A DNA stretch of 64,000 bases from Gottfriedia acidiceleris. GTDB taxonomy: Bacteria; Bacillota; Bacilli; Bacillales; Bacillaceae_G. Position 1 is the first letter of the stretch; each line of letters begins with the position of its first letter. This document shows, in pieces, positions 4,368 through 60,809 of the stretch. The stretch spans positions 248,001-312,000 of the forward strand of contig NZ_NESS01000005.1 of NCBI RefSeq assembly GCF_002128425.1, in the 5' to 3' direction. The notes under the pieces are model-generated. The model ran no database searches and was not told the DNA's origin. It saw nothing but the letters and a program-made list of their open reading frames with translations. The translations under genes were made by a program, and so were the position numbers.

Positions 4368-5111
4368 CTATTTACTTGACTCTTTAAGTTTTAACAATGC
4401 TTCTTTAGCTGCTTGTTGTTCTGCTTCTTTTTTAGATCTACCACTACCGATTCCTAATGTTTCTCCATTTAATAATACTTTTGAAACAAATTCTCGGTTA
4501 TGTGCTGGTCCTTTTTCTTGAAGTATTTTATACTCGATTGAACCTGTAGAATCTCTTTGTACAAACTCTTGTAATTGACTTTTAAAATCCATCACATGCG
4601 AAAAAGCACCATCGTTTATTTTTGGGAATATATGAAGAGATAAGAAGTTAATAACTGTTTGTAATCCTTGATCCAAATATAATGATCCGATAAATGCTTC
4701 AAATACATCCGCAAGTAGTGCTGGACGTGTTCGACCACCTGTCATTTCTTCTCCGCGACCAAGTAAAATATATCGACCAAAATCTAATTCATATGCAAAT
4801 TTCACAAGTGATGGTTCACAAACGATTGCGGCACGTAATTTTGTTAACTCGCCTTCACTCATTGTGATATATTTTTGAAATAAATATTGTGAAACGGTAA
4901 GCTCTAAAACAGCATCCCCTAAATATTCTAATCTCTCATTATCTTCATATGGTTTTTTACGATGCTCATTCACATAGGATGAATGTGTAAACGCTTGAAT
5001 TAATAAGTTCTCATTATTAAACTTAATATTTATTTGTTTTTGTAATTTTACAAAATTCTCTTTTTCAACATCAGAAAGTTTATATTCTCTTACTCTTCTT
5101 GAATGCGGCAT
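4368..5111 (-). CDS. rnc: Ribonuclease III
   Basis: Double-strand-specific endoribonuclease for rRNA maturation and RNA turnover. It has 247 residues, about the usual length. The RNase III signature [14 protein letters not shown] lies at about 58-71 with the acidic metal ligands. The second acidic pair is in the [11 protein letters not shown] region, and the C-terminal double-stranded-RNA-binding domain ends in [14 protein letters not shown]. The ATG at 5111 is preferred because GGAGGTAAAT sits just upstream; an in-frame TTG four codons earlier overlaps that site. The gene follows acpP and precedes smc, the standard Bacillus order. Confidence 0.97.
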
Positions 5112-5174
5112 ATTTACCTCCAACTAAAAGCAGTTTGATATGCTGCTAAACCTACTAGTCAAGAAAATGATGAG

Positions 5175-5199
5175 AAGTCCCGTATAAAATACGGGACTT
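5175..5199. terminator. Hairpin terminator after acpP
   Basis: A perfect stem AAGTCCCGTAT/ATACGGGACTT with a three-base loop lies just past the acpP stop. The T-run is better on the plus strand than on the minus strand, so its strength for acpP is uncertain. It separates acpP from rnc. Confidence 0.65.
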
Positions 5200-5205
5200 T
5201 TCTCA

Positions 5206-5439
5206 TTACATGTTGCTCTCTATGTAGTTCACAACATCACCAACTGTGACGATTTTTTCAGCATCTTCGTCAGAAATTTCTAATTCAAACTCATCTTCTA
5301 ATTGCATTACTAATTCAACTACGTCTAATGAGTCTGCGTCTAAATCTTCTTTGAAACGACTTGTAACTTGGATCTCAGATTCTTCTACACCTAAACGGTC
5401 AACAATAATCTTTGATACGCGCTCTAATACATCTTGCAT
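5206..5439 (-). CDS. acpP: Acyl carrier protein
   Basis: Small acidic carrier that holds growing acyl chains on a 4'-phosphopantetheine arm during fatty acid synthesis. Its 77 residues are the family length. The modification site DADSLD places the serine at residue 37, and the composition is strongly acidic. A strong GGAGGTG ribosome site precedes the ATG. It is the last gene of the fapR-plsX-fabD-fabG-acpP cluster, 67 bp after fabG, and is followed by a hairpin terminator. High translation is expected, since ACP is abundant. Confidence 0.98.
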
Positions 5440-56130: not shown

Positions 56131-56479
56131 TTTAGAGTGATATGTGTTGTTTAAATTTTTACTGATGAATCATTCATCACAATTCTATACAAGAATATTA
56201 TATAAGGAAAAGTTTACTAATTTTTACTAAATTTTAGTCTCTTTTGTGACAGTTTTTAACTTCTTAAAATATGGTTAATCATATTTCAATCCGAAATAGT
56301 ACAGGGTAAAGTGAAAGATAAAGTTAGAAATTTTTAAAGAAAACTAGCAAATTGGAGAGTTTTTAGGCGAATACTGAGGGCGTAGTTGCAATAATATTTT
56401 TACTAAAATTTGCTACTTCGAGAAGCTTGCTTCACCGCTGCAAATTTATACTTTCTTAATGCGTAAAAAAATCTACAAC
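56131..56479. other. Spacer with a nested inverted repeat
   Basis: No gene is visible in these 349 bp. A perfect AAATTTGC/GCAAATTT pair (56406-56413 and 56440-56447) encloses a GC-richer core with GAAGCTTGCTTC. This looks like a small structured or mobile element, or the remains of one. The end overlaps the DinB-like gene's terminator. Confidence 0.45.
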
Positions 56480-56497
56480 CTAAGTCGTAGATTTATT
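56465..56497 (-). terminator. Terminator overlapping the end of the DinB-like gene
   Basis: The stem AAATCTAC/GTAGATTT (56469-56476 and 56487-56494), with extra pairing inside, is followed on the minus strand by TTTTTTTACG. It includes the gene's stop codon. Confidence 0.7.
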
Positions 56498-57025
56498 TGA
56501 TTCATTCAGTTTGTATTCTAAGAATTCTTGAGACTTTCCTTTAGGAATACTCAAACTCTTAAATTCATCATTTTTTATTAACTTAGTAATATAAATGATT
56601 TGACCGATATGACTCCCGTAATGACTAATTTGTCTATGTATTGCTTGTAAAACAGTATGATCTTCACCACGAATTTTAATCGTTTTTAATACATCTTCTT
56701 CTTGTAGGCTCTCTAGCGTGTTAAAAACAACATTCCATCCTTTATTCCAATCAGCTAATAACTCATCCTTTGATTGGTAAATCCCCTCAAATTCAACGTC
56801 ACGATTTCGCCATGGTTTTTCACCATCAGTCGTGAGAAAATCCGTCCATCTAGAAATCATATTACCACTTAAATGCTTTACAATTATGGAAATACTATTC
56901 GATTCACTAGATGGTTGTAAGTGCAACTCCTCATTATTTAGCTGATCCATCGAACGATCACCAAGCTTTTTTATCCCTTTGAATTCCTTTAAACTATTCG
57001 AAAGAAATTGTTTTGCGATTGACAT
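56480..57025 (-). CDS. DinB-like / DUF1572 four-helix protein
   Basis: 181 residues, mostly helical, with three histidines spaced as in the DinB/YfiT metal-binding fold (one in IIVKHLSGN near residue 51, two in HRQISHYGSHIGQI near 130-141). Family members are metal-dependent thiol transferases or damage-inducible proteins; the substrate is not known. GGAGGG precedes the ATG. It stands alone between two repeat-containing spacers. Confidence 0.75.
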   Translation of the reverse strand: MSIAKQFLSNSLKEFKGIKKLGDRSMDQLNNEELHLQPSSESNSISIIVKHLSGNMISRWTDFLTTDGEKPWRNRDVEFEGIYQSKDELLADWNKGWNVVFNTLESLQEEDVLKTIKIRGEDHTVLQAIHRQISHYGSHIGQIIYITKLIKNDEFKSLSIPKGKSQEFLEYKLNESNKSTT

Positions 57026-57260
57026 CCTTGGCCCTCCAATTTAAAGTTTCATTCAATCAATTTTATGAATAGTTTAAAAATTTATTAATTATTTATCAAA
57101 TAATATGTTTAGGCGTATGGTGCGAAAGTAGAGATTATTTTTCATTTTGTATGATTTTTCATATGTATCCTAATCATTTTAGATGATTTTATGCTTGGAT
57201 GATTGTTTTAAGTGAATTTTTTATTGTGGAGCAGTCAGGTTGAGTGTACCTTTTATAGTT

Positions 57261-57725
57261 TATTTGCGATTTTACTATTTTAAATTGTGATTCCTTATTT
57301 TTATTTGCCATTTTCGTTTTTTAATTGCTGTTCTCTATTTTTAATGGCGATGGCTGTTTTTTATTTGCGATTTCCAGTTTTTATTAGCGATGCCTCATTT
57401 TTAATAATGTGTTTTGTTACGATTAAACAATATACGACCTTTTTTCTTTTAAACCAAGGTAAATCTAAGACTTATTTGCTCTTTTGAATTTTTTAATTGC
57501 AGTTTTGATTATTTTATTTGCAGAATTGACATTTTTAATTGCATTTTTGGCTTTTTTATTTGCAGTCCACTTTTTTTATTTGCACTTCTGACTATTTTAA
57601 TTGTAGTTTCGACGATTTTATTTGCACTTTCGATCGGTTAATTGCAGTCGATTTTTTATTTGCACTCCCGATCGATTTATTTGCAGTCCACTTTTATTTG
57701 CACTCCCAATTTATTTATCTGCATC
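57261..57725. repeat. Degenerate ~21-bp tandem array (T-tract + TTTGC core)
   Basis: Roughly twenty units of the form TTTTATTTGC or TTTTAATTGC followed by 8-11 variable bases. The G of the TGC core falls at 57266, 57287, 57307, 57327, 57347, 57367 and 57387 (block 1), then 57499, 57520, 57541, 57562, 57582, 57603, 57624, 57644, 57662, 57683, 57700 and 57721 (block 2). Spacing is mostly 20-21 bp, about two DNA turns. Block 1 favours GCGAT after the T-tract, block 2 GCA. The variable parts differ, so this is not a recent tandem duplication. Confidence 0.85.
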
Positions 57726-57737
57726 CCAAATTCACCC

Positions 57738-57771
57738 CACAAAAAAAAGATGACTCCAAAAAGTCATCTTT
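57738..57771 (-). terminator. Terminator of the pyrimidine operon after pyrE
   Basis: The stem AAAGATGACT/AGTCATCTTT with a six-base loop is followed on the minus strand by eight T. Confidence 0.88.
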
Positions 57772-57784
57772 CCGATTCTAAGTA

Positions 57785-58419
57785 TTAAACTTCTACAGTC
57801 ATCCAACTAGCATCTTGTGGATTTTTTCTCCATGCAGTTAGTTTTGCTACATGTTCTGCTTCGATTGAGCCTTGTTCTTTTGCTACTTCTACTAGTGTGT
57901 CATAGTCAGTTAGAGAATAGTATGTTACGTCGTTTGCATCAAATTTCTCTACTGCTGCTGGAAGATTATATGTGAAGATAGAGACTACTCCTAGTACTTC
58001 GCAGCCCGCTTCCCGTAAAGCTTCTACACATGTAATTACGCTGCCGCCAGTTGAGATTAAATCTTCTACTACTACTACTTTTTGTCCAGTTTTAATTGGG
58101 CCTTCGATTTGGTTTCCTTTGCCGTGGCCTTTTGCAGAGCTACGTACATAAACCATTGGTAATTCCATTAAATCACTTGTCCATGCTGCGTGTGGAATTC
58201 CAGCAGTTGCTGTTCCAGCGATTACATCTACGTTACCAAATTTAGTTTGGATTAGTTCTACTAAGCCTTTTGCAATGTTTTTACGAATTTCTGGATAGCC
58301 AAGAGTTAGGCGATTATCACAATAGATTGGAGATTTGATTCCTGATGCCCATGTAAATGGAGTTTCAGGTTGAAGGCTTACTGCCCCAATGCTTAATAAG
58401 TTTGCTGCGATATTTTTTT

Positions 58420-58423
<4 letters not shown>
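57785..58423 (-). CDS. pyrE: Orotate phosphoribosyltransferase
   Basis: Joins orotate to PRPP to form OMP. It has 212 residues with the PRPP motif [15 protein letters not shown] and the [12 protein letters not shown] loop. The ATG at 58423 overlaps the pyrF stop by four bases (ATGA), with GGGAGG upstream; an ATG six codons earlier lies within that site. Last gene of the pyrimidine operon, followed by a terminator. Confidence 0.97.

Positions 58424-60809
<2,386 letters not shown>

Follow-up and report, generated by a model that had tools for sequence, protein, structure and literature searches.

The window, a 64,000-nucleotide stretch of the Gottfriedia acidiceleris genome, contains a pyrimidine (pyr) operon with identifiable pyrE-like, OMP decarboxylase and dihydroorotate dehydrogenase genes, which agrees with the original prediction that a repeat array lies downstream of such an operon (Table 1). 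The array starts ~20 bp past the intrinsic terminator of the operon. Open reading frames of 66 aa and of 80 aa run into the array, but a coding function was rejected because the arrays vary by whole units of 18–21 bp and 20 is not a multiple of three.

Table 1 Features around the array in the window. Unit counts and steps of both blocks are the output of the chain finder.
Feature	Position	Strand	Description
DUF1572/DinB-like gene	56480..57025	-	PF07609, PF12867; across the array from pyrE and codirectional with it
Array block 1	57258..57388	+	7 units, steps 21, 20, 20, 20, 20, 20; core TTTTATTTGC/TTTTAATTGC, spacers after it mostly of GATT type
Interval between blocks 1 and 2	57389..57469	.	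~80 bases, no recognised unit
Array block 2	57470..57722	+	13 units, steps 17–21 (mostly 21); core TTTTATTTGC/TTTTAATTGC, mostly AG/AC-type spacers
Intrinsic terminator of the pyr operon	57741..57771	-	Stem AAAGATGACT/AGTCATCTTT with a minus-strand T-run; score 34
pyrE-like phosphoribosyltransferase gene	57785..58441	-	PF00156; array follows its 3' end
OMP decarboxylase	58420-59208		pyr operon
Dihydroorotate dehydrogenase	59105-60046		pyr operon

Periodicity of 20/21 bp was recovered by two procedures. Tandem Repeats Finder reported periods including 20 and 40 at 57259–57405 and including 21, 42 and 38 at 57472–57729, and autocorrelation over 57241–57740 gave z scores of 6.5 at 21 bp, 5.1 at 20 bp and 4.7 at 42 bp against 300 dinucleotide shuffles. 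Cores matching TTTTAWTTGC with at most one mismatch occurred 16 times in the same interval, compared with a shuffle mean of 1.44 and a maximum of 5 in 200 shuffles. The two blocks of about twenty cores at 20–21 bp described in the original prediction are therefore real and far above chance, and the sub-motifs were also as described, with GCGAT in block 1; those of block 2 are GCAG and GCAC. Strict phasing at two helical turns was rejected, being interrupted by steps of 17, 18 and 20 bp in block 2.

Phased T-tracts could in principle bend the DNA or seed a nucleoid protein, and the spacing of near two turns is consistent with such an architectural role. A dinucleotide-wedge model was applied to each block and to 200 shuffles. 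Over a 63-bp span the modelled bend of block 1 exceeded that of 197 shuffles (reached by 3/200), whereas over 105 bp it was reached by 25/200, and that of block 2 was reached by 83/200 and 91/200 over the same two spans. The peak modelled bend of the array lies above 99.7% of window positions, and the block 2 mean lies at the 59th percentile. The curvature expected originally is thus predicted for block 1 at the shorter span, is unclear for it at the longer one, and is predicted for block 2 at neither. Because block 2 would be no more bent than its own shuffles and the 17–18-bp steps disrupt the phase, we regard curved or architectural DNA as an improbable explanation of the array.

The array in the window belongs to an oriented minisatellite family with copies dispersed through the genome. 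A two-core pattern gave 51 matches at 21 places in the same genome, and the reversed-pattern control gave none; 20 of these places lie outside any long ORF, and one (L167) is inside an ORF of 488 aa. A stricter two-core pattern matched 9 of 40 genomes (reversed control, 1 match), all of them among the 13 of the genus, within which G001, G004, G008 and G010 had no match. The original prediction looked to comparable arrays at other places in this genome and among related ones, and both are present. In a survey of 397 genomes from the order, a triple pattern matched 13, of which 8 belong to the genus and the remaining 5 represent five other genera; its reversed control matched once. A database scan returned at least 116 stretches, at least 67 of which have a chained array with a score of 25 or more; among the matches listed are Neobacillus, Planococcus, Metabacillus, Filobacillus and other Bacillales, together with short arrays in Bacteroidaceae assemblies. 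Since arrays were detected via a TTTATTTGC-like core, the core common to several genera is partly a search effect, which leaves orientation and terminator side unaffected.

Five loci in Bacteroidaceae assemblies (L048, L130, L052, L084 and L128) have short TTTATTTGCCTGCTCTGAGAA arrays with 21-bp steps, and at L048 and L130 the array is followed by a terminator, as in Bacillales. At L064 (Bacillus sp. B1-b2), positions 4662–5373 form a long higher-order repeat that mixes TTTATTTGC units with TTTTGTTGCG units.

The unit consists of the core TTTWAWTTGC and 8–11 freer bases. Across 127 Gottfriedia arrays, information content is high at the TTTTAWTTGC positions and drops to mostly low values past the core, and the steps are chiefly 21 bp (469), 20 bp (311) and 18 bp (61), with all other steps of up to 30 bp totalling 80. 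GA follows the core in 170 of 297 units of 20 bp, whereas AG or AC follows it in 304 of 436 units of 21 bp and in 53 of 59 units of 18 bp; because the continuations split in this way, unit length tracks unit type. The 127 arrays of this analysis and the 127 of the leader and orientation analysis below passed different filters. Because the sets used for the terminator side, for leader and orientation, and for units and indels contain orthologous arrays of related species, their members do not count as independent.

The pyrE-like gene has a close match in all 13 genomes of the genus, which allowed the comparison of downstream regions proposed in the original prediction. This yielded a mixed picture, with an array in five genomes, remnants in three and none in the other five. 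An array in only 5 of 13 genomes indicates that it is dispensable at this position. The array of G006 downstream of pyrE is a 40-bp higher-order repeat. At L185 (G005), also downstream of pyrE, spacers contain AAAGATGACT and GGAGT, which are parts of the adjacent pyr terminator stem and loop; array and terminator there look as if sequence had been exchanged.

Arrays gain and lose whole units. In 24 orthologous pairs, 24 whole-unit changes fell in arrays and 5 in flanks (6.7 versus 1.0 per kb, p = 1e-5), and one orthologous locus has 23 units in one genome and 5 in the other. This turnover, together with the difference in array presence between species, is what would be expected of a neutral or selfish minisatellite in a MITE-like, BrickBuilt-type element without host function, which would have spread long ago, partly with a leader, into safe sites behind terminators and then changed by slippage. 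We regard such a neutral element as the main rival to the interpretation given below, and as a serious if somewhat doubtful possibility; it covers all of our observations except constraint and, unless there is a directional insertion rule, orientation. Short indels (1–6 bp) behave differently from whole units, being found at 42 of 3567 array columns and 76 of 4826 flank columns (11.8 versus 15.7 per kb, p = 0.14). They are not significantly rarer in arrays than in flanks, which gives no support to the selection on spacing that had been suggested and counts against curvature.

We then compared core and spacer within orthologous units. In 101 units from 36 of 47 pairs, 65 of 1010 core positions (6.4%) and 230 of 1049 spacer positions (21.9%) had changed, so the core is indeed kept while the variable parts diverge, as originally noted; in 25 pairs without a common locus the figures were 46/720 and 160/751. 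Because misaligned paralogous units could mimic such a gap, the analysis was redone in gapless, highly identical blocks, which gave 5.7–6.3% for the core, 12.9–21.0% for the spacer and 14.0–15.7% for the 5' intergenic flank. Considered by base class, A/T sites changed at 5.6% in the core, 20.5% in the spacer and 14.6% in the flank, and G/C sites at 7.1%, 21.9% and 18.6%, respectively; in the strictest set the difference between G/C core sites and spacer was not significant (p = 0.13). A simulation with uniform 15% divergence returned 15.5 and 14.9%, and the gap is therefore no product of the unit detection rule. Relative to the spacer, the core is slower by a factor of 2 to 3.5, a difference that persists when base composition is corrected for, and the spacer changes at about the flank rate or above. 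Slower change of the core than of spacer and flank, within base classes too, is not predicted by neutrality. The core of the unit is thus under constraint, and something probably recognises it. A decaying minisatellite, one of the original suggestions, fits the turnover of whole units but not the constraint on their core.

Arrays lie mostly just behind an intrinsic terminator, with GCAAATAAAA reading in the direction of the terminated gene. Gene calls were made from longest ORFs and terminators from a home-made hairpin score, and the count covered the 57 arrays that have a called gene on either side (77 before filtering; arrays within large genes or lacking genes on both sides were excluded). 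In 45 of the 57, the neighbouring gene 3' of the array, as read on the TTTTATTTGC strand, is encoded on the opposite strand. At a score of at least 28, a terminator-like hairpin in that gene's direction lies within 110 bp on the same side in 33/57, and the gene is on the corresponding strand in 32 of these 33. At this score, wrong-direction hairpins were found on the terminator side in 14/57, which indicates that the terminator signal consists partly of symmetric hairpins; the opposite side has 6 facing and 2 wrong-direction hairpins. With a score of at least 34, 21 right-direction and 6 wrong-direction hairpins remained, compared with 2 facing and 1 wrong-direction on the opposite side.

The same polarity was seen where both neighbouring genes read in one direction. 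Among leaderless Gottfriedia arrays, 40 with codirectional neighbours were -- and 7 were ++ (p = 1e-6), and in other genera the counts were 14 -- and 2 ++ (p = 0.004). Four further genomes gave 15 versus 6 (p = 0.08, or 0.04 when L344, one of the 6 and with the transposon described below as its neighbour, is left out); this set holds 28 loci in 27 rows, L339 having no array above threshold, L338 being at an edge and L347 having two arrays. A neutral element would need a directional insertion rule to produce this orientation, and none was seen. Array direction also agrees with that of replication in 43 of the 54 arrays of two nearly closed genomes. Most of the 11 discordant arrays have the leader dyad described below (at L294 with 4 mismatches), and three have none within 5 mismatches; of these, L305 follows the gene and L301 and L306 do not. 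Gene direction and replication direction mostly coincide, and the discordant arrays favour neither as the cause.

A preferred strand relative to the upstream gene could also reflect an element acting at the RNA level, in which read-through RNA folds or binds a factor. The plus strand of the window array is predicted to fold somewhat better than shuffles (z = −2.1); the strand made by read-through is not (z = −0.18), no Rfam match was found in 56400–58600 at E values up to 1, and none of ten leader loci matched Rfam at gathering scores. We consider an RNA element very improbable.

The orientation would also suit a barrier against antisense transcription, in which the repeats act in the TTTTATTTGC direction as RNA polymerase pause or termination sites of the NusG type, T-rich and with a weak rU:dA hybrid, and shield the gene end. 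Of 1022 Gottfriedia units, 601 have TTNTTT in the core, and T makes up 49% of the array strand. In Bacillus subtilis, TTNTTT on the non-template strand is the motif of NusG pausing, described as necessary but not sufficient (PMC12288461). Core position 5 (A or T), which decides whether the motif is formed, is the fastest-changing position of the core at 13–14% in the larger sets and changes at 7–11% in the strictest ones, and it is A in 368 of the 1022 units. As the deciding position is not clearly constrained, NusG-type pausing is weakened as an explanation and seems to us a poor prospect.

A leader accompanies part of the family. The dyad ATACC-N6-GGTAT(GGGT) stands at the array start in 51 of 127 Gottfriedia arrays (~40%) and is absent at the window array; its mismatch counts are two-peaked, at 0–4 and 7–10, with four arrays between. 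AFS001701, AFS088145, AFS041924 and FJAT-25509 are grouped with Gottfriedia in this count, AFS041924 (L088, L111) by assumption. In ten aligned copies (L174–L183) and among 46 leader copies, a non-coding leader lies beyond the dyad, ahead of the array, and is partly conserved, in its inner part only; over its outer 110 bp, between-copy likeness is little higher than in shuffles (8.4 versus 7.2). Likeness between the far flanks slightly exceeds that of shuffles (8.6 versus 7.3), but neighbouring terminators fall within them. The leader side is toward a gene 3' end in 41 of the 51 leader-bearing arrays. Among those with codirectional neighbours, 19 are ++ and 10 are -- (p = 0.14), so the preference of leaderless arrays is not seen; with all Gottfriedia arrays pooled, leaderless and leader-bearing, the counts are 50 -- and 26 ++. 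A dyad-containing leader at so many arrays speaks for a neutral element. Against it, no terminal inverted repeats were found in an ungapped search of 45 of the 46 leader copies (mean match of the outer leader end to the far flank, 7.5 within copies versus 7.7 between them). A dispersed terminator-like hairpin, GGGGCTGTCTCAT..GTCAGG..CTGACA..GGGC, lies beside the leaders at L174, L176, L177, L179, L180 and L182, and a hairpin resembling it was seen downstream of pyrE at L192 (G007).

In other genera, arrays hold transposon copies, a further point in favour of a neutral element. In G279, pairs of arrays flank a 1.2-kb Mutator-family transposase gene (PF00872), which we take to be of the IS256 type. 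All eight copies found (L354–L361) sit within TTTATTTGC arrays, and at seven an 8-bp duplication, identical on both sides, overlaps the core, e.g. AAATAAAA. A single 87% identical copy in G101 (L370), from another genus, lies within an array that also has a 21-bp period but is built of a different unit; its duplication is TGAATAAA. The association does not extend to the wider family. In G029, the four listed copies of a 59% identical relative are in no visible array, and one of them seems to interrupt a gene; L371, L373 and L374 likewise showed no array. By eye, distant relatives at L379, L383 and L389 (G133) and at L375 and L376 (G045, G146) appear beside other short intergenic repeats, e.g. 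GCGGAACAGATGTCCG; L386 seems not to fit. The G279 transposon was rejected as the source of the window array because its transposase matched none of the 13 Gottfriedia genomes. The G279 result suggests that mobile DNA can use the arrays as landing sites. There may be a widespread and so far unrecognised class of polar ~20-bp recognition arrays behind the terminators of bacterial transcription units, each genus with its own version, read with directional effect by a protein either dedicated or conserved and in some cases used as landing pads by Mutator/IS256-type transposons; such a generalisation would at present be unlikely to hold, though it deserves mention.

Several known systems resemble these arrays. 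Iteron and plasmid-partition arrays are direct repeats of ~20–22 bp, near two helical turns; the arrays here differ in lying at many chromosomal loci per genome, and no replication or partition gene was found among the tested genes that flank the window array. CRISPR loci combine a leader with repeats and variable parts, but their repeat–spacer period is about 50–80 bp, far longer than the 18–21-bp period and 10-bp core found here. The nearest known kind is BrickBuilt of Porphyromonas (PMC4596501). In P. gingivalis it has 19 dispersed intergenic copies of an imperfect 23-nt tandem unit whose non-conserved sites lie mostly in one half, with 1 to about 23 units per copy varying between strains and a flanking leader (PMC4596501). 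The arrays described here are likewise dispersed and intergenic, with a short, imperfectly repeated tandem unit that is conserved in one part and variable in another, and this shared plan favours a neutral element. That no feature class was known for the array, as the original prediction held, is therefore too strong, since minisatellite-bearing intergenic elements exist. BrickBuilt differs in having a leader and a tail with IS5-like terminal inverted repeats (PMC4596501), and we do not claim membership because no inverted ends were found here; in addition, the leader accompanies some of our arrays only, the one in the window not among them, the unit is unrelated in sequence to the TTTTAWTTGC unit, and the available passages of PMC4596501 report neither a terminator orientation rule nor a constraint test. 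REP and BIME elements are extragenic multi-copy repeats described as protein binding sites, for which roles in termination or supercoiling have been hypothesised (PMC2817692, PMC3733652). Insertion sequences are reported to target REPs (PMC1525189), which parallels the transposon copies within arrays, but they are palindromic and alternate in BIMEs, whereas the units here are non-palindromic direct repeats. Searches of the open-access literature for Gottfriedia repeats and for tandem repeats with terminators and curvature returned no description of the family, with BrickBuilt alone coming close.

We tentatively favour the interpretation that the family is a turnover-prone minisatellite whose core serves as a recognition site, perhaps in a polar manner at transcription-unit ends. 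Binding sites, for a chromosome-architecture or segregation protein, were among the functions first proposed, and recognition sites are a good reading for a dispersed family with a conserved core. The core would be bound by a sequence-specific factor, and many sites in the same direction would form a polar boundary. At leaderless arrays, RNA polymerase reading through the terminator would meet GCAAATAAAA repeats and polymerase moving the opposite way TTTTATTTGC repeats. The boundary might halt or pause polymerases engaged in read-through or antisense transcription, as a roadblock or pause platform, or it might insulate topologically, an option modelled on the roles hypothesised for REP elements. 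On this proposal, units turn over while the core stays because unit number would set boundary strength.

The family is a rare case of a minisatellite that allows separate measurement of constraint and of unit turnover. Should the core prove to be a recognition site, at least ~20 copies per genome would mark transcription-unit ends directionally in a form that can be counted, deleted and inverted, and the arrays would provide a tractable system for insulation between neighbouring bacterial genes.
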